A stretch of DNA of 64,000 nt from Promethearchaeota archaeon Loki_b32 (GTDB lineage Archaea > Asgardarchaeota > Lokiarchaeia > Sigyniarchaeales > SOKP01), in contig NJBH01000009.1 of NCBI GenBank assembly GCA_005223125.1, forward strand, positions 62,001-126,000, written 5' to 3'. The notes beneath the pieces are model-generated. The model had not been told where the DNA came from. It saw only the letters and a program-made list of their open reading frames with translations, and searched no databases. How positions within the stretch are numbered: the stretch's first letter is position 1; the number at the start of each line of letters is the position of its first letter. The translations under genes were made by a program, and so were the position numbers. Below, in pieces: positions 15,897 to 31,691 of the stretch.

Positions 15897-16487
15897 TTAT
15901 TTTTTTTCTATTTTATTTCTATTTAATTTTAAGAAGGGAAACATAAAAAATACATTATTTGCATAATCTAAAAATTCATCTCCATATTTAGCTTTTAAGG
16001 CATACTCTTCAATTTTTGCTAAAATAATATAAGCTAATACTTCGCCAGTCCAAATCAAAAACATAAAAATGTATACATCGATACTCAAGTCAAAATTGAC
16101 AATAGGACTGGTTTTGAAAACCATTAAAGTCATTCCAAAAGTCATGATAATTAATGATATATATTGAGGATGTCTTAAATATCTATATGGTCCAGTTCGA
16201 ATTAGTTGTTTTCTGTGAGTTAATTGATAAATTAGAGATGTGATAAAAAGCATGAACCCTAATATTATAATATATATTTCATAGCTATTAAATAAGAATG
16301 CAAGATCCGATCCTAAAATTCCTGGGTTTTGAAAAAAGAACGCTAAATAGGTAATTAATGGCACACTCATAATACCAAACCATATGGCAGTGCATGGCAC
16401 ATATTGGAAAATCGGGATTAATATAGAGGAAAGACTTGTAGCAACCGAAGTTATTTTATTTTTTATTTTATTTCCTTTAAGATTCAT
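15897..16487 (-). CDS. Isoprenylcysteine-methyltransferase-like (NnrU/ICMT/PEMT fold) membrane protein
   Basis: 196 aa with four to five hydrophobic segments. The central motif RTGPYRYLRHPQYISLI and the later acidic EVLAYIILAKIEE fit the ICMT/PEMT family of membrane SAM-dependent methyltransferases, which methylate lipids or C-terminal carboxylates. The substrate is unknown. It precedes the membrane wHTH gene. The 28-bp promoter element lies 60 bp upstream. A decayed copy lies at 26986-27256. Confidence 0.7.
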   Translation of the reverse strand: MNLKGNKIKNKITSVATSLSSILIPIFQYVPCTAIWFGIMSVPLITYLAFFFQNPGILGSDLAFLFNSYEIYIIILGFMLFITSLIYQLTHRKQLIRTGPYRYLRHPQYISLIIMTFGMTLMVFKTSPIVNFDLSIDVYIFMFLIWTGEVLAYIILAKIEEYALKAKYGDEFLDYANNVFFMFPFLKLNRNKIEKK

Positions 16488-16546
16488 ATGTTAATACCTT
16501 TTAAATTTATAGATTTACTTATAAAAAATGAAACAATTTTGTTTTT

Positions 16547-16574
16547 AAAGGTTTAAGGTGCACTTTTAGAACAA
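16547..16574 (-). promoter_or_regulatory. Shared 28-bp promoter element, copy 1
   Basis: On the plus strand aaaggtttaaggtgcacttt followed by tagaacaa. Read toward the gene (minus strand) it gives a GTGCAC-containing upstream block and then TTAAACC plus TTTAAAAA, which resembles an archaeal BRE plus TATA box. The ATG of the ICMT-like gene is about 60 bp downstream. Two near-identical copies lie at 17805 and 31542. Confidence 0.65.
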
Positions 16575-16675
16575 TTTTGGATATAAAATAAAGGATGCTT
16601 ATCTATTTCTTTATTTCTTCTTAGAAAATATATATCCTACAATTTCTAAAGTAGCATTCCTTTCCAATAAAAAAT

Positions 16676-17752
16676 CTATTTTTTATATTTATATATAATA
16701 ATAATAACTATTACTAAACCTGTCATAATAACAACTATAATAACTGGGATTATAAAATTTGGATTTTGAGGTAGAGATAGATTTGAAAGTTCGAGGATTT
16801 CTAAACCATCATCTAAGTCAGTTAAAAATACTATATTATTATCAACAAATAGATTTCTCGTGTGCCCTCCATCATTAAATCCGCCTATCTTCCAAGGATT
16901 AGTAGGATCACTTATATTAACGATTTCAAGCCCATCATTATCATCTGATAGAAAAGCTATATCATCTAAAATGAAAGCATAGTATACATTACCTCCGTTG
17001 TTGAACGATCCCAAAGTAATTGGATGGATAGGATCACTCACATTCAAGATCTCTAAACCATTTGAACTGTAACACAAGTAAGCAATATTTTCTATGACCT
17101 TAACACTGTAAGCACCTTCCCCATTAAAACATCCACCGATTTCGGAAGGATTAAACGGATCTGAGATGTTAACTATTTCAAGACCTGCATGATATTCTGC
17201 TATATAAGCTAAGTCTCCTTTAATAAAAACCCCGTTAGGCGATCCACCATCATTGTATTCACCAATTTTATTTGGATGTCTAATATCGCTGCAGTTAATA
17301 ATTTCAAGTCCATTTTCTATACTCACTAAATAGACAAGATCTCCAACAGTAAAAACATCAGAAACATGTCCTCCATCATAGAAATCACTTATCTTAGTAG
17401 GGTTTAATGGATTTGATACATTGACTATTTGCAAACCACTAAAATAATTCGCTAAATAAGCGACTCCATTAAGAACATCGATACTGTGAGTTACTCCGAG
17501 GTCAAGATGCCCCAATTCGGTTGGATTGCGAGGATCAGAAACATCAATAATTTGCAACCCTTCTTCATTTCCCCCTATATATGCTATATCATCGATTACT
17601 ACAACATCCCAGGCAAATAAAGTGTCGAATTGCCCGATCTTTTGTGGATGCATAAATAAATCAGCATATACTTTATTATTGTTTGATAAAACCGTAAAAA
17701 ATACTATAATAATAATAAAAAATATCTTTAAGGGGGGTGCCTTTGAATTCAT
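16676..17752 (-). CDS. LVIVD-repeat surface protein
   Basis: 358 aa. A signal-like N-terminus (IFFIIIIVFFTVLSN) is followed by about seven repeats of some 43 residues of the form VSDPxNPxxIGxFxDGG...VxxIAYLxxxxxGLEIIN, the LVIVD pattern that forms a beta-propeller. A C-terminal hydrophobic segment (IIPVIIVVIMTGLVIVIIII) with a YKYKK tail anchors it outside the cell. Likely a binding protein on the cell surface. Its promoter carries the shared 28-bp element; GAGGAAAT precedes the ATG. Confidence 0.85.
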   Translation of the reverse strand: MNSKAPPLKIFFIIIIVFFTVLSNNNKVYADLFMHPQKIGQFDTLFAWDVVVIDDIAYIGGNEEGLQIIDVSDPRNPTELGHLDLGVTHSIDVLNGVAYLANYFSGLQIVNVSNPLNPTKISDFYDGGHVSDVFTVGDLVYLVSIENGLEIINCSDIRHPNKIGEYNDGGSPNGVFIKGDLAYIAEYHAGLEIVNISDPFNPSEIGGCFNGEGAYSVKVIENIAYLCYSSNGLEILNVSDPIHPITLGSFNNGGNVYYAFILDDIAFLSDDNDGLEIVNISDPTNPWKIGGFNDGGHTRNLFVDNNIVFLTDLDDGLEILELSNLSLPQNPNFIIPVIIVVIMTGLVIVIIIIYKYKK

Positions 17753-17804
17753 ATTTCCTCAAATATTTTTGAATGTTTAATTTAATTTATGAAAATATTA
17801 TTAT

Positions 17805-17832
17805 AAAGGTTTAAGGTGCACTTTTCGAACAT
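17805..17832 (-). promoter_or_regulatory. Shared 28-bp promoter element, copy 2
   Basis: Identical to copy 3 over 27 bases. Read on the minus strand: TTCGAAAAGTGCACC, then TTAAACC (BRE-like) and TTTATAATA (TATA-like), 53 bp before the ATG of the LVIVD gene at 17752. The constant block thus includes the core promoter and a GTGCAC/TTCGAA stretch just upstream, where an activator or repressor would bind. Confidence 0.7.
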
Positions 17833-17883
17833 TTTAAAGTATTAATTTTACCTTGGAAGATTAAGACTTTAAAATTTTAAAAC

Positions 17884-18678
17884 TTACTTGAGTAATATTG
17901 CAGAGAACAGTTCTTCTACTAGTTTGTTTACTTCTAGTAAACTTTTTGATTTATCAGAGACATCAATTATTGGTTTTCCTTTTAATTCAAATTCAGTTAT
18001 TTCATTATCTTCTGGAATTTCTGCTAAAAGGGGTAATTTTAGATCATCAATTTTCTTTTTAATCTGACTTGTATTACCTTTAACTCTATTTAAAATGAGA
18101 CCTAACTTTTTATATTGAGTAAATTTTTTTGCACCATTACGTATAGCAGCAGCAGTTTCTATACTCCGTATTGAGATATCTGAAACAATTAAAAGGATAT
18201 CTACTGTTTCAATAACCATTCGATTGATTTGCTCAAGTCCTGCTTCACAATCAATTAAAACTATGTCAAAATCTTTAGTGATTGAGTTAATTACCTTACG
18301 TAAAAGTGCATTTGAAGGACAAAAACATCCAGGTCCCTCAGGTTGTCCTATAGAAAATAAACTAAAATTTTTACTTTCTGTAATTGCATTATATACTTCA
18401 AAGTCAATATTTTCTGCTACTTTATCCAAATCTTTTGCTTTTGTTAAAATTTCATCTATAACATCAGTTCTTAATTTTTCAAGACTTTTTTTGGGAATTA
18501 AATTTACCATATGACTCAAATGAGGATGTGTTGGATCTGCATCAATTAATAGTATATTAAAATCATATCCTTTTGAAATACTCTTAGCTAAAAGAGTTGT
18601 TATAGCTGTCTTACCAGAACCACCTTTTCCTACAACTGAAATTGTTAACGGTTTTTCATAATTTTTTTGTTTTTTCAT
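17884..18678 (-). CDS. CooC/AcsF-like P-loop ATPase
   Basis: 264 aa, MinD/ArsA superfamily. The deviant Walker A is VGKGGSGKTAITT (about residues 16-28), and the later DCEAGLEQINR is the switch region. GPGCFCPSNALLR near residue 115 is the CxC pair that marks CooC and AcsF, the ATPases that load nickel into carbon monoxide dehydrogenase and acetyl-CoA synthase. Start ATG at 18678. It is the last gene of the 17.9-25.3 kb operon, directly after an acetyl-CoA-synthase-like gene, which supports a maturation role, or a reductase role for that protein or the dehydratase. Confidence 0.78.
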   Translation of the reverse strand: MKKQKNYEKPLTISVVGKGGSGKTAITTLLAKSISKGYDFNILLIDADPTHPHLSHMVNLIPKKSLEKLRTDVIDEILTKAKDLDKVAENIDFEVYNAITESKNFSLFSIGQPEGPGCFCPSNALLRKVINSITKDFDIVLIDCEAGLEQINRMVIETVDILLIVSDISIRSIETAAAIRNGAKKFTQYKKLGLILNRVKGNTSQIKKKIDDLKLPLLAEIPEDNEITEFELKGKPIIDVSDKSKSLLEVNKLVEELFSAILLK

Positions 18679-18699
18679 AATCTCGATAATTCTACAACT

Positions 18700-19482
18700 T
18701 TATCTTTCAATTTTTTCTCTTTCAACTAATACTTGTTTAATCTCATAACATTCTTCTTGATATGGACAGATCTCACATCCCCAATCATATTCACAATCTA
18801 TTCTTTTTTTCCAATTTTCTATTTTCTTTAACCATTTTTCATTTATATAAGAATTAATTTTAGAAGTGATCTTAATAAACTCATCAATTACATTTGTATA
18901 AGTATTAACAAAAAAAATCTCCATAGACTCAATTAGATCTTTGAAACGTTGTTTGTATAAATAAAAAATCGCATTTCCTAAAAATTCAAAAGTAAAATCC
19001 TTCATTATTTTCTCACTAATTCTACACCAAAATTTTCTAGGAATTGTCCTTATCAAAAATCCTTCTATTCCATTAGATATTAGATTAAATTGTCTTAAAG
19101 AATCCCAATCCTTTTCAGTAATATTCTTTCCCCCAATCAGGATTATCATTCCAAAATCGATCGATAGGTCGTGTATATCCTTATTTTCTACTCCAATTAA
19201 CGTAATTGTTCCTTTTTTTACAGCATTTATAAAATCTAATTCAGAGAAAGGATAAACTAATGAAAATGACTTTTTATTGATACCTCCCAGTTCAAGCTTA
19301 GTTTCTTCTTGAAGAATAATCTCTTTATGCTTATCTAATTCAACTTTAATACTTAACTTTTCAAAGAGTTTAGGAGGATTAGGATTTTCTTCATAAATAA
19401 ATACATTTCTCCCTTTTTGGGACTCGGAGTTTATATGATTCCTTAAACCATCAAGAAATTCTTCAAATAATTCGATCTTCAT
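18700..19482 (-). CDS. Truncated acetyl-CoA synthase beta (CdhC/AcsB)-like protein
   Basis: 260 aa. From about residue 62 it tracks archaeal CdhC by eye: LELGGINKKSFSLV (compare LGGPKS-LELV), GTITLIGVENKDI, FGMIILIGG, NGIEGFLIRTIPRKFWCRIS and FEFLGNAIFYLYKQRF. The end, CEYDWGCEICPYQEEC, sits where CdhC has its first A-cluster cysteines, but the protein stops there, so the rest of the A-cluster domain is missing. It may bind a different metal site. It lies between the CCG Fe-S gene and a CooC-like ATPase gene. Homology is judged from memory of the family and needs a profile search. Confidence 0.5.
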   Translation of the reverse strand: MKIELFEEFLDGLRNHINSESQKGRNVFIYEENPNPPKLFEKLSIKVELDKHKEIILQEETKLELGGINKKSFSLVYPFSELDFINAVKKGTITLIGVENKDIHDLSIDFGMIILIGGKNITEKDWDSLRQFNLISNGIEGFLIRTIPRKFWCRISEKIMKDFTFEFLGNAIFYLYKQRFKDLIESMEIFFVNTYTNVIDEFIKITSKINSYINEKWLKKIENWKKRIDCEYDWGCEICPYQEECYEIKQVLVEREKIER

Positions 19483-19534
19483 AAAATTCCATTTATGATT
19501 CTATAAAGATAATAAAAAAAAAGGATTAATAGTT

Positions 19535-20800
19535 TTAACTCTTAATTGCTTTATTTATTAATTCTGATAGATCAAAGGTTTTAATTTCACCATCTTTGAT
19601 ATTTGCCTTGAATTGGTTTAAACAGAATGGACAGCAAGATACAATTGCTTCAGCAGTAGTTTCTTTCGCTTCCTCAATTCTTTCATTCGCGGCAAAATTT
19701 GATAAATCTTTAAATGCTGACCTCACACCGCCCCCAGAACCACAACACCAAGCATTTTGTTTATTTCTTGGCATTTCCATTAAATTAATTCCAGGAATGT
19801 TCTTCAATACTTCTCTTGGGGGTTCAAAGATTCCCATATGGCGACCAATATGACAAGGATCGTGATACGTTATGTTCATGTTTACATTGTTATTGAATTT
19901 TACCTCATTATTATTTAATTTCTCCAGTATAAACTCAGGTAAATGAAGTATCTCAATACCATGGTCAAGCCCAAATTTCTTAGGGTATGTCTCTTTTAAT
20001 GTTCGATAACAACCCGCACAAGATGTTATAATTTTTTCAATTCCTTCATTTTTAAAGATATTTACATTAGTCTCAGCAATCTGTTTTGCTTTTTCAGTTT
20101 GTCCAGTCATATATACAGGAGATCCGCAACAATACTCCTCTTTAAGTATTTTAAAATCAACTTGAAGGGAATTCAATATTTCTGCGGTATTAATTGCGAT
20201 TTTTTGTTCTCTATAACTTGTTGTACATCCAACAAAATATGCTAGTTTTGCATCTTGAGATTGTTTAATATTTGAGGTAATCCAATTTGTTCTATCTTTA
20301 TGTTTTTCCATATATGGATTAAATTCTTTACCAACATGGTCAGTATACTGTTTTTGTTCTGGCATTGGTCCTAAACCTTTTTGAACTGCTTTTTCTCTCA
20401 TTGCCATCAACCATTCTCCGGCATAATAGTGAATCTCTGGTATTTGACATTGTTGTGTACATGCTAAGCAAACAGAACATTGGTAAAATATATTTGCTAA
20501 ATTTTCTGTCCAATCTAAGCGATTTGAAGTAACTGCCCAAGAAAGAAGATTTTTTCCTCCTAAATAATAAGCCTCAAACTTTCCAAATTCTCCAGAGGGA
20601 CAAACTCGAAACCAACCCTCTTCCTGATATCCAGTTCGGCATGTACCACATTTTCCACATTGATATAAGATGTCTTTATAATATTCTAAATCTTTATGTC
20701 TATCAAGTTTTTGTTGATCGGGGACGGTTTCAATACGAGTTATGCCTTTACCATCGACAAATTTTATTTTTTCTTCTTTCACCATTTTAATCATCTCCAA
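19535..20800 (-). CDS. CCG-domain Fe-S oxidoreductase subunit (HdrD/GlpC-like)
   Basis: 421 aa. N-terminal cluster cysteines CGKCGTCRTGYQEEGW...CP and CSVCLACTQQC are followed by two CCG domains: CCGSPVYMTGQTEKA (about residue 225) and CCGSGGGVRSAF (about 355). This is the electron-transfer partner of FAD-linked dehydrogenases of the GlcD type. It overlaps the end of the FAD gene by 14 bp, so the two form a complex. It should carry electrons between the flavoprotein and a ferredoxin, quinone or heterodisulfide-type acceptor; the acceptor is not visible. Confidence 0.82.
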   Translation of the reverse strand: MEMIKMVKEEKIKFVDGKGITRIETVPDQQKLDRHKDLEYYKDILYQCGKCGTCRTGYQEEGWFRVCPSGEFGKFEAYYLGGKNLLSWAVTSNRLDWTENLANIFYQCSVCLACTQQCQIPEIHYYAGEWLMAMREKAVQKGLGPMPEQKQYTDHVGKEFNPYMEKHKDRTNWITSNIKQSQDAKLAYFVGCTTSYREQKIAINTAEILNSLQVDFKILKEEYCCGSPVYMTGQTEKAKQIAETNVNIFKNEGIEKIITSCAGCYRTLKETYPKKFGLDHGIEILHLPEFILEKLNNNEVKFNNNVNMNITYHDPCHIGRHMGIFEPPREVLKNIPGINLMEMPRNKQNAWCCGSGGGVRSAFKDLSNFAANERIEEAKETTAEAIVSCCPFCLNQFKANIKDGEIKTFDLSELINKAIKS

Positions 20801-22262
20801 TACCCTGTCCTGGATTCATAATATTATTTGGATCAAGAAATTTTTTTATCCTTTCAATTAGATTATTTGTTTCTGGAAGAGTTTTATCCTTATAGTGTTG
20901 AACTACCCATTTTGGAGGTTTATACATTATTGTTCCTTCAAGTTGTTGAACAGCATCATGAATTTCTTTTAGAATTTGCCTTGTTTTTCTTATATCTTCT
21001 GGATCATTTTTATTAAAATTCACATTAGTCCTTGTAACGCAATAATGACCACCAAACATAATTCTACAATAATATTGAGGTGATTTTCCGTATTTAAGGC
21101 AGATTTCTCTTGATATTTGGTAATATTTTATAATATTGCGTGTTGTATTATAACATCCAATCCACTCTCCTCCGCCACCTCTAGCAAAATTCCAACATCC
21201 CCAAAATTGTATTGGCATTTGACCTCCCGTTACTGGGAATATATGACCTAATACTCCCCTCATTTTTTTGGGAAAATTTCTTGTTTGAACATCAGCAGTT
21301 AGTGGTTCAATATTATATTCACGACATATTTTTTTAATAGCATCGCACTGTGCTTTATGCTGTTCTTCTGTGTATGCTTCAGTTGTAATTAGACCAATAA
21401 AGTCAGGCAACCCTAGTGAAACGGGGTCTATTGCTACACTTTTCTGATCAAAACATTGAAGAGATTGAGCCCATCCCATATTTGTCATCAATAAGTCTAC
21501 AATTCCTAGACCCGCTTTTGATAATTTAAGCAACATAGGAACTCCATCTTCAACTCTAGTTGCAAAAGGAAGAAAATCAGTTCGATATGGGAGTTTTGGC
21601 CATATTTTAATTGCTGCTTTTGTTACGATTCCAGTAGTACCTTCCCATCCTATAAATAATCCTGAAATATCCGGTAAAGGCTGTCTACCGTACCAATAAT
21701 CAGTAAGACTACATGAACCGGCTCTTATTAGTTCTCCAGTTGGTAAAACTACCTCTAAACCATTGGTAAATTCTGCTCCTGTCCCTCCTATCATACCAAG
21801 ATCCCACATTCCATAAGCTAAACATGAAGGAACCACACCTGTACCTGGAGGTGAAAATGTGACTCCTATACGAAAATCTGGATGATATTTATCAAAATAT
21901 CCCTTGAAATCCGCCCACGTAATTCCTCCTTCAACAACAGCATACATATCATCCTCATTTACTTCAAGCACATGATTCATGCGTCGTAAATCTACAACAA
22001 TACCTCCTTTTCGAGGTGTAGCAATTGAACCAAAATTAATCCCTGAAACCCAAGGTACGATTGGAATCTTATGTTTATTCGCAATTTTTACAATTTCTTG
22101 GACCTCTTCAGCAGTTTCAGGCATTATAGCAATATCACATTTACCTTCTGGTTCTGCGGTTATAAAATCATAATGGTATAAATATTGTATCTCAGGTTCA
22201 TCAGATACATATCGATCTCCAACAATTTTTTCTAATTCTGCTATTATCTCGCCATTATTCAT
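20787..22262 (-). CDS. FAD-binding oxidoreductase (VAO/GlcD family)
   Basis: 491 aa. The FAD-binding PCMH domain shows IPIVPWVSGINFGSIATPRK, GGIVVDLRRMNHVLEV and VVEGGITWADFKGYF, then GMIGGTGAEFTNGLEVVLPT. The C-terminus ends with the family signature LDPNNIMNPGQG. It oxidises a hydroxy acid or similar substrate with FAD. Upstream of the CCG partner gene and downstream of the BcrB/C-like genes in the same operon, which suggests it feeds or drains electrons around the dehydratase. The substrate is unknown. Confidence 0.82.
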   Translation of the reverse strand: MNNGEIIAELEKIVGDRYVSDEPEIQYLYHYDFITAEPEGKCDIAIMPETAEEVQEIVKIANKHKIPIVPWVSGINFGSIATPRKGGIVVDLRRMNHVLEVNEDDMYAVVEGGITWADFKGYFDKYHPDFRIGVTFSPPGTGVVPSCLAYGMWDLGMIGGTGAEFTNGLEVVLPTGELIRAGSCSLTDYWYGRQPLPDISGLFIGWEGTTGIVTKAAIKIWPKLPYRTDFLPFATRVEDGVPMLLKLSKAGLGIVDLLMTNMGWAQSLQCFDQKSVAIDPVSLGLPDFIGLITTEAYTEEQHKAQCDAIKKICREYNIEPLTADVQTRNFPKKMRGVLGHIFPVTGGQMPIQFWGCWNFARGGGGEWIGCYNTTRNIIKYYQISREICLKYGKSPQYYCRIMFGGHYCVTRTNVNFNKNDPEDIRKTRQILKEIHDAVQQLEGTIMYKPPKWVVQHYKDKTLPETNNLIERIKKFLDPNNIMNPGQGIGDD

Positions 22263-22327
22263 TTTTAATTCACTTAATTTGAAATTTTAATATAAAATTA
22301 TATTTACTTAATGATATTAAAGCGTTT

Positions 22328-23629
22328 TCACATTAGTGTCTGAGAAAACATCTTTATTTTATCCCGAATAATTTTTTCAGATGCAAATCGAGCATCCCCC
22401 ACGTCAACATCAATTAAAAGCATTGGTATACCAACTTCATCTCTTAATGCTTCTCTTAAAATTTGAGGAACACTTCCGAATTGCTTACAACCAATATGAG
22501 ATGTAAATATAAAACAATCAGCGGAATAATCTTTTGCTAATTGAACACATTCATCTATAAAAGAGTAATAGAATTCTGCAGACTGCTTAACCATGGGTGC
22601 TTCCATTGACCTCCTCGCCATACCATAAAGCATAGTATCTAAATCTGATTTAGTATTAATTGGTTCAGCAAAATTATAATTAAAAATATCAAATAAAATT
22701 GACATTCCAAGATGACGATCTAACCATTCTCCAAGTTCTAAATCAAAGAATATAATCATATATGGCCAAATACTCCTTATTTTTTCCTCTCCAGCATGGT
22801 GTTCTTTATTTTTATACCTTTTTTTCGATATTTCAAGCATGTCATTATAAAAACTTGCTTTTTCAGTACGCCCAGATAAATAAATTGCTGCTGCTGCTGA
22901 CATTGCGTTAAACATATTCTCTACCGGACATGGTTTTACCTTTTTTAATTCGAAAATTTCTAATTGCAGTTTTGTCACTTGATTTTCTAATTCAATTGCT
23001 TCTCGTAATTTACTATAATCGGGTTCTTGATTTATAACTTTACCTAACGCTTCTAATCCCAATTTAATTTGTTCCCCATGATAATGATAACTTTTTTCCT
23101 CTTTTAAAAAAGGTAAATCTGGTGCTATAAGTGGGATTTTTTTATGATAAGAGAAAAAGGGATATGATGCGTATGTGTTATCACATGGAGCTGTTGGTGT
23201 AATAATAGCATCAAACTTAAATAGATCATCCAAAGTCATTCCCATTGTACCTTTCTGAGAGGTACAAGTGTGAAAGGGGTGACCCCAATTAGTAATTAAA
23301 TCATAATATTTCTCAGAACCATGCGGTAATAGTGCTGCCAATAGATATGAAACAGCTTCTATACAAACAGGAACACAATCAAAGCAAGAAAGGTATTCTG
23401 TAGGGAAAGAGAAATGGTGTCCAATTATGGGTAAGCCTTCTCTTGCTTTTTGGATATATTCTTCCATCACTGATTTTAAATGTTTTAAACCAATCCGTAA
23501 TGAGGGGATTCCCTTATCTGGGAGTATTCCTTCTATTAATCCAGAAGTAGATTTAACTGCTTCATATAACATTTTATATGGAATTATTCTATTTTCTAAT
23601 TCAACTCTTTTTGCCAATTTTTTTTTCAC
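22328..23629 (-). CDS. 2-hydroxyacyl-CoA dehydratase / benzoyl-CoA reductase BcrB-like subunit
   Basis: 433 aa, the length of BcrB. Candidate cluster ligands of the HgdB/BcrB family are visible: CFDCVPVCIEA near residue 81, CTSQKG and APCDNTYASY in the middle, FTSHIGCKQFG near residue 390, followed by GIPMLLIDVDVGDAR. With the 381-aa subunit coded just upstream it should form the heterodimer that binds a [4Fe-4S] cluster and removes water from 2-hydroxyacyl-CoA or reduces an aryl-CoA. The required ASKHA activator is not in this operon. Confidence 0.82.
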   Translation of the reverse strand: MKKKLAKRVELENRIIPYKMLYEAVKSTSGLIEGILPDKGIPSLRIGLKHLKSVMEEYIQKAREGLPIIGHHFSFPTEYLSCFDCVPVCIEAVSYLLAALLPHGSEKYYDLITNWGHPFHTCTSQKGTMGMTLDDLFKFDAIITPTAPCDNTYASYPFFSYHKKIPLIAPDLPFLKEEKSYHYHGEQIKLGLEALGKVINQEPDYSKLREAIELENQVTKLQLEIFELKKVKPCPVENMFNAMSAAAAIYLSGRTEKASFYNDMLEISKKRYKNKEHHAGEEKIRSIWPYMIIFFDLELGEWLDRHLGMSILFDIFNYNFAEPINTKSDLDTMLYGMARRSMEAPMVKQSAEFYYSFIDECVQLAKDYSADCFIFTSHIGCKQFGSVPQILREALRDEVGIPMLLIDVDVGDARFASEKIIRDKIKMFSQTLM

Positions 23630-23657
23630 ACTTTTCTTTATGTTATATCTTAATATC

Positions 23658-24803
23658 TCAAGAAATCATTTCTATAAAAGCTTCAATTCTCGTTTGCAAA
23701 CGAGTAGTATCTGCTTGAAAGAATTCTCTATCAATATTTAGAACAGGAATTTCCAAATCTTTTAATTCATGAGAAAAAAGCATATTATCACATCCTGCTA
23801 GATCACAATTATTAATTCTTTGTAAAATTACTCCATCAATCTTTGCCCTTTTTATTTCATCTTTAATAAAATCTAAGCGCCGTTGATGATCATCCATCAT
23901 TCTGGGGCAAGAGATCCGGTAATAATGACGCCTAGAAATCATTTCTAAAGGATTCTTTCCATCTTCTAATTTTACATCATCTAAGAAATTTCTAATTCCA
24001 AAACATAAGAAATCTGATACAATATTAGCGCCAGAATTTTCAATTAGTTTTGTAAAATTAATATCATCAACTTCACTTCCGACAAGCATTACTCTTTTAG
24101 CATCTGTTTTCAATCCTTCAATCTCTTTTAATAAATTTAAAATTCGTTCTAATTCCTGATTAGCTATATCTTTTGGAACAGAAGAATTAGCCATCGATAT
24201 TTGCAATGCCTCAGTTCCTGTGATTTTTGGAGCATCTTGAATTCTTAATTTATGAATCTCTCGTAATAGACTTCGATTCTTGTTGTAAATATTAATAGAA
24301 TTTAACAGATCCTCATCAGTGATTTTTTTATTATTATAATTTTTTTCTATTTCTTCTTTTAATTCCTCAATTTCTCTTTTATACCATTCAAAACCTTCTT
24401 TAGTTACGATATGGGGTATAGCAATATAGAATCTTGGTACTTTTTTATTAAAGCCCTCACGTTTAAATACCTTTAAATCAAATAATTCAAACATTCTGCG
24501 GGAATGATCGCAGGAATTACAAATAAAAAGACCATCCAAAAAATCATAAAACCCACGTAAAGCCATATCTAATGTGGCTCTAACGAATGAACATGTAAAC
24601 CGTACCATATATATATCTCCGAGATCTGTATCCTCATGTCCAGTTGCTCTGATTCTGAATGGTAATAAATTAGCGGCATACAATAATTCTTCTGGAATAT
24701 AGGTACAATAATGACCTACTATTTTTTTATTATCTTTTTGCCAATCTTCAATATAATGATTTTTTATAGAATTAGAAGCTGTTAAAAATGGATCTTTGTA
24801 CAA
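23658..24803 (-). CDS. 2-hydroxyacyl-CoA dehydratase / benzoyl-CoA reductase BcrC-like subunit
   Basis: 381 aa, the length of BcrC. Early GHYCTYIPEELLYAANLLPF, then FTCSFVRATLDMAL and ICNSCDHSRRMFEL, and a late RINNCDLAGCDN followed by EIPVLNIDREF, all family landmarks including three Cys positions expected to bind a cluster. 28 bp before the BcrB-like gene, 17 bp after the SCP2-like gene. It pairs with its neighbour; whether the substrate is a hydroxyacyl-CoA (as the CoA-transferase in the window would suggest) or an aromatic CoA cannot be told. Confidence 0.82.
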   Translation of the reverse strand: MYKDPFLTASNSIKNHYIEDWQKDNKKIVGHYCTYIPEELLYAANLLPFRIRATGHEDTDLGDIYMVRFTCSFVRATLDMALRGFYDFLDGLFICNSCDHSRRMFELFDLKVFKREGFNKKVPRFYIAIPHIVTKEGFEWYKREIEELKEEIEKNYNNKKITDEDLLNSINIYNKNRSLLREIHKLRIQDAPKITGTEALQISMANSSVPKDIANQELERILNLLKEIEGLKTDAKRVMLVGSEVDDINFTKLIENSGANIVSDFLCFGIRNFLDDVKLEDGKNPLEMISRRHYYRISCPRMMDDHQRRLDFIKDEIKRAKIDGVILQRINNCDLAGCDNMLFSHELKDLEIPVLNIDREFFQADTTRLQTRIEAFIEMIS

Positions 24804-24820
24804 ACTTATGATAAAACACC

Positions 24821-25309
24821 TTATCTACCTTTTTTATACATTTCATGTTTACCTATCATTAAACATCTTACCAATTTGATAGCGGCAACATAAGATCCTT
24901 TTATTTTAGCTTTTCCTGGAATGATGTATTTTAAAAGTTTTGCTAACCCAAAAATATTGCTCTTAGAACGAATTATACTACTTATCACAGTAAGAATTTT
25001 CTCTTCTTTAACATTTATAATAATTCTTGCAACAGGATCAATAGCTTTCTCTGCGTGACAATTAAAATTATTCCGATCTGATGTGAGTATGAATGTAATG
25101 TATCCATCGAATTCTTTGAGGTATAATTCAATTTCTTTACCTTTATGCTTGCCTACTTTTTTAAAGGGTTCATCTTGACCGTATAAATCGACTAGCATTT
25201 TTGCTAACCTAGCAATATTGAGAATTTTTGTATCTTTAATTAAATTCTCTGCTCTAATATTTATATCAATTTTTTTTGAGGCGTTTGTTTGATTTATAGC
25301 TGCCACCAA
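24821..25309 (-). CDS. SCP2 sterol-carrier-like domain protein
   Basis: 162 aa from a TTG at 25309 or a GTG at 25306; no good ribosome site. The pattern in residues 65-150 (ITFILTSD, then PVARIIINVKEEKIL, then AKLLKYIIPGKAKIKGSYVAA) fits the SCP2 fold, in which acyl chains or acyl-CoA are bound. It is the first gene of the operon with the BcrC/BcrB-like subunits. Assignment by pattern only. Confidence 0.5.
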   Translation of the reverse strand: MVAAINQTNASKKIDINIRAENLIKDTKILNIARLAKMLVDLYGQDEPFKKVGKHKGKEIELYLKEFDGYITFILTSDRNNFNCHAEKAIDPVARIIINVKEEKILTVISSIIRSKSNIFGLAKLLKYIIPGKAKIKGSYVAAIKLVRCLMIGKHEMYKKGR

Positions 25310-25397
25310 TTATGTGAGATTGCGGTTATTATATTTTGAATTTTCAAGTATTTAAAGATTTTATTGTCAAATTTATTTTCTAATGTTGGAATTAAAG

Positions 25398-25757
25398 TTA
25401 CTCAAAAGGTTCAAAACTTCTACAAATAGATTCTTTTTTTAAAAATTTATTCTTAATTTGACAATGAAATATCTCCTCATTATAGTAGACACAATTGCAA
25501 CAAGAGAAGAGATGATTTTTTAGTTTTTTAGTTATTTCCTTTAATTTTTCAGGATACTTTCCTTTACTTAACATAGTTTCAAGTTTATCGTGTGATGTTG
25601 CTGTTAATTTACAAAAGATGACCTTTGGAGAGGGAGGATTCCATATTTCAATCAAAGACGTACCAGTTACATTCGTAGGAGAATTTTGGTTGTTATACCC
25701 ACATTTACAAAATTTTTTCCTTAACATATTTCCACATTCAGGACAGAATTCAACCAA
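25398..25757 (-). CDS. Zinc-ribbon protein, copy A
   Basis: 119 aa. CPECGNMLRKKFCKCGY at the N-terminus is a zinc ribbon of the RNA-polymerase subunit M type; the C-terminus has a second Cys set (CCNCVYYNEEIFHC...C). Function unknown. It is about 60 percent identical by eye to the protein at 31692-32063, sharing the start MVEFCPECGNMLRKK and IWNPPSP in the middle. The two genes bracket the radical SAM locus, which may mark an insertion or a large duplication. Confidence 0.7.
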   Translation of the reverse strand: MVEFCPECGNMLRKKFCKCGYNNQNSPTNVTGTSLIEIWNPPSPKVIFCKLTATSHDKLETMLSKGKYPEKLKEITKKLKNHLFSCCNCVYYNEEIFHCQIKNKFLKKESICRSFEPFE

Positions 25758-25941
25758 TATTCTTTTATCACCGTTAGATGTGTATAATAGGATATAATTA
25801 ATTAAAAAGTCTCTAATTTTATAATTACAATTAAATTCTCTGTTATCATATTTCAGAAAATATTAGTTGAGTGTTAAAGTAAAATCCTTTAATTTTTCTT
25901 TTTTATTTCAAAATTAGACAAATAGACTTATTTTAAGTATT

Positions 25942-26562
25942 TTATATGTAAGGAGAGATATCAAAATCTTGCTCTAAAGAAAGATTTATGAAGTCATCTA
26001 CTTCTTGCTGCGAATCTCCATAAATTTTTAAGAGATATCCATTATCTTTCTTCTCAACTTCAACTCTAAAACCATAAAACATTGTTTTATATTCTAATTC
26101 CTTGACTCTCCTTTCATTATCAGCATCACCCAGAAAATATTCGCCATAAAAGTCACCCTTCGATAGTTTACGGAGCGAATATGCTGGAATCTCAACAACT
26201 TTACCATCAGATCTCTGGCAATTAATCCTTGCATTTTGGGTAAATTCACTAGGTTTCTCTAAGAGCCTTACTTCTTTTGATTGGGTTATCCAAAATAACA
26301 TATCTCCTATTTCTATGGATTCTAGCATACTTATTGTCTCTTTACTAGCACTCTTACTAATAAACCTTAACCGTCTTTCTTCTTTCTGTATCCATTCGCA
26401 GGCTCTATTAAGCAGTACTTTTACTCCAAAAGAATTGCCACTATTGAATTCTCGCCAAAATTCATCTAAATAATTACAGATATAAAAATCTAATTGCATA
26501 TCAAGAATCTTGAATGGACAATTTTTCTTATTTTGACGACAAATAAAATATTTTTTAGACAT
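25942..26562 (-). CDS. Hypothetical protein
   Basis: About 206 aa from the ATG at 26562 (MSKKYFICRQNKK). The frame is open to 26688, but the extra N-terminus is unlike a protein start and overlaps the nuclease remnant. It has CRQNKKNCPF near the start, a helical middle, and a mixed alpha/beta C-terminus (FYGFRVEVEKKDNGYLLKIY). No known family recognised; no membrane segment in the trimmed form. On the same strand as its neighbours. Confidence 0.45.
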   Translation of the reverse strand: MSKKYFICRQNKKNCPFKILDMQLDFYICNYLDEFWREFNSGNSFGVKVLLNRACEWIQKEERRLRFISKSASKETISMLESIEIGDMLFWITQSKEVRLLEKPSEFTQNARINCQRSDGKVVEIPAYSLRKLSKGDFYGEYFLGDADNERRVKELEYKTMFYGFRVEVEKKDNGYLLKIYGDSQQEVDDFINLSLEQDFDISPYI

Positions 26563-26632
26563 TAAATTATGTAAAAAATAACACTTCAAATATAAATAAT
26601 TAATGAATCTATTGGGAATAAGAAAAAAAATT

Positions 26633-26985
26633 TTATAAAGTACCGAGATAATTTCTAAGTTTAGAAAACTGCTCCTTAGTAAGTTCAATACCTGTCCACT
26701 CTTTTATCTGCTTAAGGATTTCATTCATCCAAATATTCTGATCCCATTTCTCCCAGATTTCTACCAATATTACATTCTTATCCTTACAAATAAGCCTCTT
26801 CTTCCTATCAGCTTCCTGTTGATCTGGATGACTATCACCATGCCAATATGTCCCCTGAGCTTCAAAAGCAATTCCTATCCACTTATCATCTAAACCTAGA
26901 TAATCCTTAAGTGGTTCGGCTCATATCTAATATCATCTAAACCTAGATAATCCTTAAGTGGTTTATTTAATTCCAGATAATTCTC
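26633..26985 (-). pseudogene. Remnant of a PD-(D/E)XK / Vsr-like nuclease
   Basis: Reading leftward, one frame gives WIGIAFEAQGTYWHG, HPDQQEADRKKRLICKD, KNVILVEIWEKWDQNIW and ends ELTKEQFSKLRNYLGTL-stop at 26633. The E-x-G...H...D..K...LVEIW layout is that of restriction-like endonucleases fused to or resembling very-short-patch repair nucleases. The N-terminal part (YENYLELNKPLKDYLGLDD) is out of frame because of a 47-bp insertion, and everything further upstream is missing, replaced by the ICMT-like remnant. Confidence 0.6.
26885..26963. repeat. 32-bp direct repeat with a 15-bp templated filler
   Basis: A 32-base sequence beginning atcatctaaacctagataat occurs at 26885-26916 and again at 26932-26963. 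The joint plus filler, ttcggctcatatctaat (26915-26931), is identical to 27385-27401 inside the wHTH gene. This is the pattern of a template-switch repair event. Confidence 0.75.
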
Positions 26986-27256
26986 ATATATTTATATGGT
27001 CCGGTTCGAATTAGCTGCTTTCTATGAGTTAATTGAAATATTAATGAGTAAACAAAAAGCTGAAATAAAAATAGTCAGTTGATAGAATTCTGGGATTTTG
27101 AAAGAAAAAGGATATGTAAATTATGAACGGAACACTCATTATACCTTTCCATATAGTTAAACAGGGTACATACTGAAAAATTGGAATTAATATTGAAGAA
27201 ATTCTCGTAGAAATTGCTTCAATTTTTCTTTTAATTTTACTTCTCTTAAAATTCAT
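26986..27256 (-). pseudogene. Decayed ICMT-like methyltransferase copy
   Basis: The ORF from 27256 codes for 71 aa (ISSILIPIFQYVPCLTIWKG, SVPFIIYISFFFQNPRIL) matching the N-terminus of the intact protein at 15897-16487, then shifts frame and stops at 27041. Further left, DNA for the TGPYR region (tatggtccggttcgaattag, 26996-27015) is still recognisable, and then the copy is cut. The gene follows the membrane wHTH paralog, the reverse of the order at 15-16.5 kb. Confidence 0.72.
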
Positions 27257-27283
27257 CCTTGGTTCCCATATATCTATTGCGAA

Positions 27284-28009
27284 TTATTCTTTTTGATTTA
27301 CATATAACTTTATTTCACGATTATATCTTTCAAGTATTATTAAATCAAGTTTAGCCAGTTTATCAACATGATATTTCACAGAACTTCGGCTCATATCTAA
27401 TTTCTTAGCAATCTTCGCTGAATTAATGCCAGGATTTTTTTCAATTAAATCTAGAATTTTTATGCTAGTTTTAGACTTTGTAATCAATTTTAATGGTATT
27501 GTTTTCATTTCTTTTTTGGATAAAACAGGGAAAAAGGATACATATTGTCCTAATTTCTCTTTTTTAATTATTCCATATTGTAATAATACATATAAATGCC
27601 ATTGTAACTGCCCCTTCTGCAAATTACATTTTCTAAGGAGTTCATTATTATGGATTCCGGGTTCTTGTAGAATTTTATTAATGATATTTTTACGGTTTTC
27701 ATTTTCAAAAATATCTTCGAAAGATAAATAAGTATACCGTTCAGCTACTATTGTTTTTCTTCTAAAATAGTCTTTATACTGATTAACAGTTAGTATGATT
27801 AAAAGTGATGTTAAAATTAGTGTGAAAAATGCTAATAAATCGATTAAAAACCAATTGATATTATCTTCAAGATAAAAAGATATCTTCGTTTCAGGAGAGA
27901 TTAGTAGGAATAAGGATAATAGAGAAATGCAAATAAGAGTGATTATAATACCTAATTTGATATAAAATAACCGTTTGTATTTCCCTATTTCATTTTTAAA
28001 AAAACTCAT
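27284..28009 (-). CDS. Membrane-anchored regulator with two winged-helix domains (copy 2)
   Basis: 241 aa. Two hydrophobic segments (about residues 15-35 and 48-70) precede two HTH domains: GIHNNELLRKCNLQKGQLQ and GINSAKIAKKLDMSRSSVK. Paralog of 15159-15890. It lies 20 bp after the third small peptide gene, as the last intact gene of the radical SAM operon, and is the obvious candidate to bind the 28-bp element found at both loci. The N-terminal half lying in the membrane suggests it senses something at the envelope. Confidence 0.8.
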   Translation of the reverse strand: MSFFKNEIGKYKRLFYIKLGIIITLICISLLSLFLLISPETKISFYLEDNINWFLIDLLAFFTLILTSLLIILTVNQYKDYFRRKTIVAERYTYLSFEDIFENENRKNIINKILQEPGIHNNELLRKCNLQKGQLQWHLYVLLQYGIIKKEKLGQYVSFFPVLSKKEMKTIPLKLITKSKTSIKILDLIEKNPGINSAKIAKKLDMSRSSVKYHVDKLAKLDLIILERYNREIKLYVNQKE

Positions 28010-28029
28010 ATTAAATAAAAAGAAATTGG

Positions 28030-28320
28030 CTAATTAAAAATTTTAAAAATTATTTTAGTCTTAATTTTTTTTTTAAAATCGTTTACTCTAACTGTAGAAT
28101 ATAAGGTTCCCGCGGGGTAAATATGTTTGGAATTTTCTATCCGAACAAGAACGATTAAAAATCCTAAGAAACTAACTACTATAATTAATAGGATTTTATA
28201 TAATAGAGAATGTTTACTGTTATCAAATAAAAATACTTTGTTTATTTCTTTTCTGTTTAGACCTAATCCCTCTCCAATTTTATATAGATTAAATATTTTA
28301 TCAAACATTTTATTGATCAC
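28030..28320 (-). CDS. Small single-pass peptide P3, candidate radical-SAM substrate
   Basis: 96 aa. N-terminal block FNLYKIGEGLGLNRKEINK, then a hydrophobic segment (ILLIIVVSFLGFLIVLV), then YPAGTLYSTVRVNDFKKK. It shares all three blocks with P1 and P2: (F/L)Y(x)2G(x)2LG(x)2(K)EIN, a membrane span, and YPxGTxYST(V/I)(K/R)(V/I)xDF. No Cys. The other family members lie upstream next to a radical SAM/SPASM gene. It could be a modified precursor peptide or a membrane adaptor for the enzyme; no known family recognised. Confidence 0.65.
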   Translation of the reverse strand: MINKMFDKIFNLYKIGEGLGLNRKEINKVFLFDNSKHSLLYKILLIIVVSFLGFLIVLVRIENSKHIYPAGTLYSTVRVNDFKKKIKTKIIFKIFN

Positions 28321-28387
28321 ACTTCTATTTTCTTGTTAAAAAATTATTGGTTTTAAATTTTGGTGTCTTAATTTTCTCTTTATGCAA

Positions 28388-29734
28388 TCATGATATAGTT
28401 CCAATAGAAGTAATTGGTTCAAATTTTGGTACGACACCTTTCTTACGTTTTATCCAATTTAATTCATCCGTTATAACAGATTTTATCTTACCTTTATTTC
28501 GAATATTAGTTATTCTTAGAAGACGCAATGCCTTTTTATAAATTTTCAAAGCCTGAGAATTCGATTTTAGCTTTACTAAAACTTTACCTAAATTCCAATA
28601 AAATAAAAAATTGTCTCTATAGAGTTGTATAGCTTTTAAAAGCATATTATAGGCTTTCTTATAATTTTTTTGATAAAATATCTTTACACCGAGATAAAAA
28701 AAATTAAAAGCACTTCTTTCTGCTAAAGCAGATGCGAAAAACTTTAAATTATAATCTTCGTTTTCCTTTGATAAATTTCTTAATTTATCGATAAGATTTT
28801 TTCTTTCCTCTTTGACTTTTATTAGATTTGTTATAAATTTTCTCGCAAAAGATTCTATTGAATAAAAAACAATTTTTTGTGATCCTGAATTAATCGGACC
28901 TTTTTTTAATAAATTATATAGAATATTGGGGAAATTGTATTGAATTAAAAGATCTGTAATTTCTCGTATGTTCGAATTTTCAGATTGAGAAATAAAATAT
29001 TTACTTTCTATTACTTTCAATAACAGATTGACGATTTGAGGCCATTTTATGAGTGATTCAATAATTAAGTCATAAATTAACTTTTTATTCTTCTTTCTTT
29101 TAAATTCAAGCGTTTGTATTGCGATAAAAGATAATAAATCTTCTTGTTCTTTAATTAACAGTGAATCATTAAAATTACTGTAATTCATAGTAAGTAATTT
29201 TTTACGGATTTTAGCTATAATTTGAAATATTTCTGTTTCATATACATTCATTACTTTAATACATTCAAATCTTACTGATGGAATAAATTCATGGTTGTAA
29301 AAACTTTTGGTACTCATATTTTCAAATCCATTATTTTCTAATAGTTCAATTAACAAGAAAGGAGGAAAACATAATTTATGTTGTAAACCTTTATGGGGTA
29401 TTCCGTAAATCCAACCTAAAATTTCTTTTTTTTGTTCTTTGGTCGAATCTAGATAATGCCGACATACTTTCTTGAGATCAGGAGTCTCAATAATTAATTT
29501 ACCTCCTGGTTCTAATACCCGAAAAAATTCACTTAAGGCATAGATTGCTTCAAAAAATGATAAGTGCTCTATTAGATGAATGGCTTTTATTTCTTCACTA
29601 CAATTATCTTCAAATTGTAAATCTATAGCGGACATTAATTTATCTGCAATTAATGTTTCATATAAATCAATATTGCAATAACCTATCTCGTACTTTTTTC
29701 CACAACCGATATTTAATTTCATTTTTCTTTTCAA
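28388..29734 (-). CDS. SAM-dependent methyltransferase with C-terminal TPR-like domain
   Basis: 448 aa, ATG at 29734 or 29722. Residues 5-160 are a class I methyltransferase: MKLNIGCGKKYEIG (motif I), AIHLIEHLSFFEAIY, and FFRVLEPGGKLIIETPDLK, the pattern of COG4627-like predicted methyltransferases. The next 200 residues are helical, and residues about 370-430 form TPR-like repeats (AYNMLLKAIQLYRDNFLFYW, ALKIYKKALRLL). The start lies inside the P2 gene (68-bp overlap), so translation is coupled. It may methylate the small peptides or a lipid or glycan. Confidence 0.72.
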   Translation of the reverse strand: MKRKMKLNIGCGKKYEIGYCNIDLYETLIADKLMSAIDLQFEDNCSEEIKAIHLIEHLSFFEAIYALSEFFRVLEPGGKLIIETPDLKKVCRHYLDSTKEQKKEILGWIYGIPHKGLQHKLCFPPFLLIELLENNGFENMSTKSFYNHEFIPSVRFECIKVMNVYETEIFQIIAKIRKKLLTMNYSNFNDSLLIKEQEDLLSFIAIQTLEFKRKKNKKLIYDLIIESLIKWPQIVNLLLKVIESKYFISQSENSNIREITDLLIQYNFPNILYNLLKKGPINSGSQKIVFYSIESFARKFITNLIKVKEERKNLIDKLRNLSKENEDYNLKFFASALAERSAFNFFYLGVKIFYQKNYKKAYNMLLKAIQLYRDNFLFYWNLGKVLVKLKSNSQALKIYKKALRLLRITNIRNKGKIKSVITDELNWIKRKKGVVPKFEPITSIGTIS

Positions 29735-29978
29735 AATCTTTAATTTTTATAGTAGAATATTTTGTGCCAGATGGATAAGTACTATCTGCTGAATTTATTC
29801 CAATAGATATTAAGAAGAATAATAAGATAGAAGATGATACAATTAAAATAAAAATAAATAATATTCTAAATGAAATTTGATGTTTTTTATCATGAAAAAA
29901 TAATAAATTATTTACCTCTTTTTTAGATAGCCCTAAAAATTTGCCAAATCTGTAAAATTGAGCAATTGTGGTAATCAT
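29667..29978 (-). CDS. Small single-pass peptide P2, candidate radical-SAM substrate
   Basis: 103 aa. It has the shared layout: IAQFYRFGKFLGLSKKEVN, a strong hydrophobic segment (ILFIFILIVSSSILLFFL), then ADSTYPSGTKYSTIKIKDFE. The start overlaps the P1 stop in an ATGA junction and the end overlaps the methyltransferase start by 68 bp. Its distal tail (about the last 20 residues) is therefore coded by DNA that also codes for the methyltransferase N-terminus. Confidence 0.7.
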   Translation of the reverse strand: MITTIAQFYRFGKFLGLSKKEVNNLLFFHDKKHQISFRILFIFILIVSSSILLFFLISIGINSADSTYPSGTKYSTIKIKDFEKKNEIKYRLWKKVRDRLLQY

Positions 29979-30310
29979 TTTAAAGATTTTACACCAATAT
30001 TTAGAACTTTAAAAAATCTACTATAGAAAGGGGAAACGAGTTTGCTAAATCTAGATTTATTCTTAAAATCTTTAACTTTTACTGACGAATAAAAAGAGTT
30101 GGAAGGATACGTGGAATCTGCGGGGTTGGTTATTATCATAAAGAGTGAAAATATAAATATACAGAAAAATGCAATAATAATTATGGAAAGACAGAAAAGT
30201 TTCATTTTTTTATATCTCCCCGAATAAGATAAGAAAACTCTATTGATTTCATTTTTATGAATTCCTAAACTCCTACCAATTTGATAAAACTGGATAATCT
30301 CATCAAACAT
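29975..30310 (-). CDS. Small single-pass peptide P1, candidate radical-SAM substrate
   Basis: 111 aa. IIQFYQIGRSLGIHKNEINR, a hydrophobic segment (LSIIIIAFFCIFIFSLFMII), then ADSTYPSNSFYSSVKVKDF and a basic tail. It begins 29 bp downstream of the radical SAM gene. The conserved sequence after the membrane span, shared by three paralogs while the rest drifts, is what is expected of a region recognised or modified by an enzyme. It is the longest of the three. Confidence 0.7.
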   Translation of the reverse strand: MFDEIIQFYQIGRSLGIHKNEINRVFLSYSGRYKKMKLFCLSIIIIAFFCIFIFSLFMIITNPADSTYPSNSFYSSVKVKDFKNKSRFSKLVSPFYSRFFKVLNIGVKSLK

Positions 30311-30339
30311 TTTTAATATTAACCTCCATTATCATGAAT

Positions 30340-31494
30340 TTAATTTAAGATATTAATTAATTTTGATATTGTAGTATCTACTTTTTTATTAATAGGTACA
30401 AGTTTATGATTTATCATTGTATTTTCAATGGCTCTCAAACAATAAGGGTTTTCAAAGGATTTTAAAGCTAGACTAGTTCCAAGGCAACCCCCCCTACAAT
30501 CATCAGCAAGATCGCATTGCTGGCAAAAATCTTTTAATGGATATCTTTTATTTTTCAATCTTTTTAAAATTTCATCTAAACTTTCATTTCTAATATTACC
30601 TTCAATATAATCATCTGGAAGTGTAAGACATCCTTTTATGTTTCCATTACTTTGAATACCTAAAACTGAATGACCTGCTTGACACCCAACCCAAGGATTT
30701 AATCCTAATTTAGGAATAAACCTTGAGAAATATCCAAAGCAATGAGCCCCGATTAAAGGTAATCTTTTGTAAGAATATTTTTTATGATTAATTGCTATAA
30801 ATAATGCCAAAGTATAATATTCTTCTCTAGAAATAACTAATTCTTTTGGAAAACGTCCAATAGGGACTGCTAATTGGATTTGCCATGCGATATTTTTATC
30901 AATTAATAACTTCTTAATCATGTTTATTTCTTTAAAATTAATTTTACTTACGGACGTAATAACAGTTACTGGAAGCTTTTCTTTTTTTAGTAAACTTATA
31001 AGATTTAAAGTTTTTTTGAATGAATTGTTGATACCCCGTAAATAATCATGTGTTTCTCCTCTTCCTCCATCTAAACTTAGAGATACACAGTCTGTTTTTA
31101 ATTCTTTTATCTCTTGTATATGTTTCTCTAAATTTAATCCATTCGTGATTATGGATAATTGCATTTTTTGATTTTTTACATCTCTTGCAATGTCATACCA
31201 ATCATCTCGTAATAATGGTTCGCCCCCCATTAAAGCAACTCCCTTATAACCATATGACTTTAAGTCTTTAACTAATTTTAAAGCTTCATTTGTATTTAAT
31301 TCATCAGAGCGAGCAAATCCTGCATCTGAACCACAGTGAATACATTTACTATTGCACTTTAACGTGATTTCCCAAACTGCACAATTAGGTTTAATTTTAT
31401 TTAATAATAGATCTGAAAATTTCGTCATATGATTTTCTGAATTACGTTTATTATTGTTATTTATGATTTGTAAATTAAAATCCTTTGTTTGCAA
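30340..31494 (-). CDS. Radical SAM/SPASM peptide-modifying enzyme
   Basis: 384 aa from 31494; Met 23 is an alternative start. C47, C51 and C54 form the CxxxCxxC radical SAM motif (LKCNSKCIHCGSDAG), followed by GYKGVALMGGEPLLR. The C-terminal SPASM domain supplies further Cys: GCQAGHSVLGIQSNG, GCLTLPDD, then CQQCDLADDCRGGC and a late C. Radical SAM/SPASM enzymes of this build mature ribosomal peptides such as sactipeptides, ranthipeptides and PqqA. Three small paralogous peptides follow directly. First gene of its operon, behind promoter element copy 3. Confidence 0.85.
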   Translation of the reverse strand: MQTKDFNLQIINNNNKRNSENHMTKFSDLLLNKIKPNCAVWEITLKCNSKCIHCGSDAGFARSDELNTNEALKLVKDLKSYGYKGVALMGGEPLLRDDWYDIARDVKNQKMQLSIITNGLNLEKHIQEIKELKTDCVSLSLDGGRGETHDYLRGINNSFKKTLNLISLLKKEKLPVTVITSVSKINFKEINMIKKLLIDKNIAWQIQLAVPIGRFPKELVISREEYYTLALFIAINHKKYSYKRLPLIGAHCFGYFSRFIPKLGLNPWVGCQAGHSVLGIQSNGNIKGCLTLPDDYIEGNIRNESLDEILKRLKNKRYPLKDFCQQCDLADDCRGGCLGTSLALKSFENPYCLRAIENTMINHKLVPINKKVDTTISKLINILN

Positions 31495-31541
31495 TAAAAA
31501 AAATTTAACTTCGTTATACTATTAGTAAAAATCTTAGTAAT

Positions 31542-31569
31542 AAAGGTTTAAGGTGCACTTTTCGAACAA
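31542..31569 (-). promoter_or_regulatory. Shared 28-bp promoter element, copy 3
   Basis: Plus strand aaaggtttaaggtgcacttt followed by tcgaacaa, 48 bp upstream of the radical SAM start. On the minus strand the TATA-like stretch TTTATTA follows TTAAACC. Same block and same orientation as copies 1 and 2. Confidence 0.7.
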
Positions 31570-31691
31570 TACAAGATACTAAAATATTTAAAAAGGAGTT
31601 ATCAAACATCTATAGCTAATAAACAAAGATAAGAAAAAATGGCACTCGTTTTAAATATAAAATAGATCCCAACGTTACCTATTAAACCTTC

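Follow-up and report, generated by a model that had tools for sequence, protein, structure and literature searches.

A conserved 34-bp promoter box in Lokiarchaeota and its candidate membrane-anchored winged-helix regulator

Three boxes facing minus-strand operons

The window, by which we mean the whole 64-kb stretch of DNA analyzed, was searched for the 20-mer AAAGGTTTAAGGTGCACTTT, which was found with 0 mismatches at positions 16547-16566, 17805-17824 and 31542-31561. No further match with up to 3 mismatches was present in the window, for which shuffled sequences predict 0.01. All three copies face minus-strand genes, namely the ICMT-wHTH1 operon, the LVIVD gene and the radical SAM (rSAM) operon, and read on that strand the copies at 16547, 17805 and 31542 are ATTGTTCTAAAAGTGCACCTTAAACCTTTAAAAA, AATGTTCGAAAAGTGCACCTTAAACCTTTATAAT and ATTGTTCGAAAAGTGCACCTTAAACCTTTATTAC, respectively. 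The first-pass annotation had described a 28-bp element common to the three operons in the same orientation; its sites and orientation held, and its length was revised, the conserved unit being 34 bp. These 34-bp boxes and the genes that follow them are listed below.

15159-15890, minus strand: wHTH1, 243 aa, two transmembrane (TM) helices followed by tandem winged helices, second gene of the box 1 operon (PF24266, 71.2 bits; PF13412, 74.6 bits)
15897-16487, minus strand: ICMT-like membrane methyltransferase, 196 aa (PF04140, 32.5 bits, cut-off 24)
16542-16575, minus strand: box 1 (34 bp), before the ICMT-wHTH1 operon (exact core; 45.3 bits, E 4.6e-11, model R1)
16676-17752, minus strand: LVIVD-repeat protein with a signal segment and a C-terminal TM helix, 358 aa (PF08309, 120 bits; hydropathy)
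17800-17833, minus strand: box 2 (34 bp), before the LVIVD gene (exact core; 44.1 bits, E 1.1e-10, model R1)
27284-28009, minus strand: wHTH2, paralogue of wHTH1, last gene of the box 3 operon (PF24266, 67.2 bits; alignment)
28030-28320, minus strand: SMP3, small single-TM protein (ORF and TM segment)
28388-29734, minus strand: methyltransferase-like and TPR protein (MT-TPR; weak PF13489 and TPR matches, under the cut-offs)
29667-29978, minus strand: SMP2, small single-TM protein (ORF and TM segment)
29975-30310, minus strand: SMP1, small single-TM protein of the box 3 operon (ORF and TM segment)
30340-31494, minus strand: radical SAM/SPASM protein, likely start at 31428 (PF04055, PF13186)
31537-31570, minus strand: box 3 (34 bp), before the radical SAM operon (exact core; 45.7 bits, E 3.4e-11, model R1)

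The distance from the box to the called ORF start is 60, 53 and 48 bp for ICMT, LVIVD and radical SAM, respectively, in agreement with the 48 to 60 bp given earlier. However, homologues of the radical SAM protein mostly align from about residue 13-25, suggesting that the ATG at 31428, at a distance of about 113 bp from the box, is probably its true start. The best NCBIfam match of this protein was nif11-class maturase 3, under the cut-off of that model. Homologues of SMP1 adjoin rSAM genes in relatives, and the small single-TM proteins are possible rSAM substrates. Members of the small single-TM family (window 28030-28320, 29667-29978 and 29975-30310; L192:6186-7042; L180:7405-7665), which number one to four next to the radical SAM gene, have a conserved N-terminal F..IxQFYKIGKELGL..KEIN segment and a C-terminal tail, YP.GT.YS[ST][VI].[VIL]KDFK.KK. 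The window also encodes a paralogous pair of zinc-ribbon-like proteins of ~120 aa (25398-25757 and 31692-32063; MVEFCPECGNMLRKK...), homologues of which adjoin boxes in several relatives.

A search of the 4.13-Mb home genome recovered 3 exact copies and one copy with 3 mismatches, compared with 0 for a reversed control pattern. Shorter pieces of the box, allowing 2-3 mismatches, occurred at about the control frequency, which argues against a dispersed repeat. Four sites were significant, all before operons and 0 intragenic; the hundreds of unrelated or intragenic copies that would have spoken for a repeat were absent, and the prediction of one regulon is supported by these sites and by the conservation of the box across relatives. 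The fourth site (C52:14093-14126) lies upstream of a second operon of rSAM, small membrane protein and methyltransferase genes, which independently confirms the earlier grouping of the operons.

Conservation, placement and target genes

Among 65 genomes of the same family, close matches to the box were found in most genera and were often clustered. From the loci examined, 47 distinct sites could be aligned over 34 columns without a gap, with a mean identity of 91%, giving the consensus ATTGTTCGAAAAGTGCACCTTAAACCTTTATAAA, and the information content falls toward background beyond the box, so that both ends are sharp. Under the sequence-only model R1, real sites mostly have E <1e-3 and noise has E >0.01. 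No motif site was found in 14 genomes from three other families of the order, and every named relative matched by the wHTH proteins is a Lokiarchaeota/Lokiarchaeia MAG. Boxes of genus g4 have a slightly different consensus, e.g., GTACACCTCAAA. At two loci (L163:8205-8301 and L164:1043-1139), tandem boxes ~63 bp apart precede one gene.

A same-strand ORF of at least 100 aa begins 20-150 bp downstream of 82 of the 99 distinct sites (5% for random positions), and a single site is intra-ORF (76% for random positions), a contrast that is indicative only, as the sites are kin by descent and the regions were picked for having sites. The distance from box end to ORF start peaks at 40-60 bp, and at seven of the 99 sites no ORF was called within 300 bp. 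These observations bear on whether the box is a dispersed or mobile repeat, or a promoter duplicated by chance, as three perfect 20-mers inside 15 kb of one contig might suggest. Box copies have unrelated flanks, the motif persists across genera despite changed gene order, sites are almost never intragenic, and an Rfam search was negative. We regard such a repeat as extremely improbable and excluded it on its intergenic placement (82/99 before an ORF) and cross-genus conservation. A structured RNA was also rejected, with no Rfam match and with the box lying upstream of a probable TATA.

The first gene downstream of the 99 distinct sites encodes ICMT in 32 cases, LVIVD in 14, rSAM in 9, SMP in 2, wHTH in 2, MT-TPR in 1 and other proteins in 32. 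A TM or signal segment was predicted by hydropathy for 26 of these 32 other targets, compared with 27% of the background ORFs at these loci (233 of 871). They include an SBBP beta-propeller, a secreted trypsin-like protein, DUF285 and PKD proteins, predicted secreted HExxH-motif proteins and small multi-TM proteins. The box precedes all 9 close LVIVD orthologues (at least 81% identity) whose 5' end is covered. Before rSAM genes it often lies ~130 bp upstream in relatives; a clear box is missing from 16 of 27 rSAM homologues, two of which (L201 and L216) keep a degenerate box in the right place. The inclusion of the rSAM operon in the regulon thus stands in qualified form: it is a variable member, frequent but not universal.

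Architecture of the box

The upstream part of the box, TGTTCnAAAAGTGCACC, contains the near-palindrome AAAGTGCACCTT, the flanks of which are almost invariant. The first-pass annotation had pointed to palindromes in the distal half; the near-palindrome is conserved, but TTCGAA is present in just two of the three window copies and its position is occupied by a G in 75% of sites. The distal part adjoins a BRE/TATA-like core, TTAAAnCTTTAWAA, at fixed spacing. With a threshold that 90% of regulon promoters pass by construction, the share of other upstream regions with a segment scoring like the proximal half was 0.6% (361 regions), compared with 0.3% for shuffles. The gene-proximal half thus appears, from its sequence, to be as regulon specific as the distal half. 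The reading of this half as BRE plus TATA fits its position, but not the sequence of an ordinary core promoter, and a generic core promoter was rejected because no enrichment of this half was seen upstream of other genes. K-mer counts over 361 promoters gave no general TATA consensus.

A comparison is offered by GvpE, which we take to be a soluble activator unrelated to the wHTH proteins. The GvpE upstream activating sequence of haloarchaeal gas-vesicle promoters is a 20-nt activator site upstream of BRE and TATA (PMC8241225). The distal part occupies a comparable position, directly upstream of the core as assigned by sequence and at fixed spacing, which fits an activator site of this kind, although its sequence differs and GvpE has many fewer unlinked targets. 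About 26 bp further down from the BRE/TATA-like half, a conserved TA (columns 52-53) may be the start site. In many ICMT promoters a conserved TTTCTTATTTA-like stretch lies downstream of the TATA, at columns +37 to +54 counted from the start of the box (for example, 16522-16538 in the window), and could represent a start site or a further element.

At L181 and L182, which belong to two genomes, the distal 19 bp (ATTGTTCGATAAGTGCACC) are kept and the middle has diverged, with TTTATAAA or TTTATAAAT remaining. This pattern points to a composition of two modules, one an operator and the other a core promoter. The same loci argue against the view that the whole 34-bp block is a specialized core promoter, an extended BRE plus TATA for a variant TFB/TBP, with wHTH merely one of the genes it drives. 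Although the invariant spacing and the specificity of the proximal half for these genes, like that of the distal half, would be expected of such a promoter, the number of boxes climbs with the number of wHTH genes in two genomes (G009 and G010), and we consider this explanation unlikely.

The membrane-anchored tandem wHTH protein as candidate regulator

The operon-borne membrane wHTH proteins had been called paralogues; wHTH1 and wHTH2 are indeed 43% identical, and in both, two N-terminal TM helices are followed by two winged-helix domains. An AlphaFold model of wHTH1 agrees with this domain plan (pLDDT 75.6), and a Foldseek search with the model returned generic winged-helix folds of the ArsR, MarR and TFIIIC types. 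Both proteins pass the curated cut-off of PF24266 (HTH_HVO_0163_N, 31 bits) and by score belong to the HVO_0163-type wHTH. The literature found on HVO_0163 consisted of one acetylome study with a single mention; no function or binding site was found. Like transmembrane transcription regulators (TTRs; PMC10269533), the wHTH proteins combine at least one TM region with a DNA-binding domain, both predicted here. The text of the TTR survey makes no mention of Asgard or Loki lineages (PMC10269533), relative to which the operator and regulon are newly described here.

The form linked to boxes is the short wHTH of ~240 aa. A box or degenerate copy lies upstream of every short wHTH operon whose upstream DNA is covered, normally 650-720 bp upstream of the wHTH gene and before ICMT, which travels with wHTH in most genomes. 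In G024, which lacks ICMT at this place, the box lies 151 bp before wHTH, and in G034 it heads an LVIVD-ICMT-wHTH operon. In G022 (L058:13372-14667), one open frame of 431 aa spans both ICMT and wHTH, through either natural fusion or loss of a stop codon. Nearly all genomes of the family also encode a longer paralogue of ~420 aa, which consists of a signal segment, an ectodomain, a TM segment and the tandem wHTH; no box was found at the three examined (L196:5540-6793, L198:3717-4967 and L199:7260-8525). In a comparison of recognition helices, Lys216 of the second wHTH appeared to be replaced by Ser, Asn or Asp in clades with GTRTAC/CTCAA boxes; this pattern was set aside as evidence because only two or three clades differ.

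Across the 65 genomes, wHTH and box occur together in 36, wHTH only in 5, box only in 4 and neither in 20. Three of the wHTH-only cases are at contig ends and two have a degenerate site; the box-only genomes are all <90% complete, with no short wHTH detected. For the 42 genomes with a completeness of 90% or more, the corresponding numbers are 30, 3, 0 and 9 (Fisher P 5e-7); some of this association is inherent, since a box lies in front of the wHTH operon itself. Plain co-occurrence is less informative than the joint rise of regulators and boxes in G009 and G010 of genus g4, which have 8 and 5 wHTH genes and 26 and 9 boxes, respectively, some of the boxes lying directly before or after wHTH genes. 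The earlier suggestion that the wHTH proteins bind the box is thus backed indirectly by genomic association, from which we infer the binding itself.

Since that binding is inferred, a soluble regulator encoded elsewhere might bind the box, with the wHTH-ICMT operon as a constant target. Archaeal regulators are mostly cytoplasmic, which counts for this possibility. Nevertheless, wHTH is what the ICMT-wHTH, wHTH-only and fused-wHTH loci bearing boxes have in common, and no other HTH gene recurred beside boxes at the loci examined. We judge an unlinked regulator to be improbable.

Taken together, we consider it likely that the 34-bp element is the operator-promoter module of one regulon that sets surface proteins, with the membrane-anchored tandem wHTH, wHTH1 and its paralogue wHTH2, as the most likely regulator. 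That the box marks a co-regulated cell-surface gene set is very likely, because it is conserved, lies nearly always before membrane or secreted genes and travels with the wHTH gene. In this model, the distal part with its near-palindrome would be the site of the regulator, abutting the BRE/TATA-like core. The wHTH protein would act as an activator aiding TFB/TBP binding, possibly in response to signals at the membrane; activation seems likelier than repression because the site lies upstream of the core at nearly invariant spacing, the sign of regulation, like DNA binding, being proposed from sequence. As it is itself encoded in box-driven operons, wHTH would be autoregulated. The regulon would set the level of the LVIVD propeller, the membrane methyltransferase and the products of the two rSAM/small-membrane-protein operons.

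ArnR and ArnR1 of Sulfolobus acidocaldarius are membrane-bound HTH one-component regulators with boxes upstream of the BRE/TATA of surface-structure genes (PMC6396743). The wHTH proteins resemble them in having two TM helices, in forming a paralogous pair, and in the position of the boxes and the surface-structure targets (PMC6396743). However, ArnR has an N-terminal HTH, HAMP, a sensor domain and C-terminal TM helices, whereas here the TM helices are N-terminal and precede two wHTH domains, and the ArnR box is TCGAC-N5-GTCGA (PMC6396743), an inverted repeat of a kind that the 34-bp consensus lacks. Because domain order and operator differ, we do not place wHTH in the ArnR family.

In our literature searches, we came across no description of a regulon or operator from an Asgard archaeon. 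These archaea, Lokiarchaeota among them, are the closest archaeal relatives of eukaryotes, and to our knowledge gene regulation in Lokiarchaeota is almost unstudied. With its nearly invariant operator, a specific candidate regulator and a definite set of targets, the regulon provides a directly testable entry point, and it groups genes of unknown function (LVIVD propellers, the ICMT-like enzyme, and rSAM with small membrane proteins) into one cell-surface program.

In genus g4, most of these wHTH proteins are fusions with a repetitive ectodomain of about 450 aa, which we call propeller-like on the basis of its repeats and weak SBBP/BNR matches; a single-sequence AlphaFold model of a 749-aa fusion was poor (pLDDT 39) and was discarded, and a PDB sequence search with the fused ectodomain gave no match. 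With the ectodomain fused in g4 and a separate LVIVD propeller elsewhere, it is tempting to speculate that the extracellular propeller is a sensor. As a tentative extension, one membrane tandem-wHTH module may serve surface sensing with its propeller either fused (g4) or supplied as a separate LVIVD protein from the same box, and one 34-bp operator may have been rewired to lineage-specific secreted proteins and rSAM/SMP loci. The fusions are 750-770 aa long, with the tandem wHTH C-terminal to the ectodomain, and number up to 8 per genome, often in tandem with a box between genes (L161:5500-10148, L165:4878-7184, L167:4463-6760 and L162:6770-9019). Their ectodomain repeats are of the type WSNATVISDG...IHVVW.D.TDG.WG.D.EIMY.
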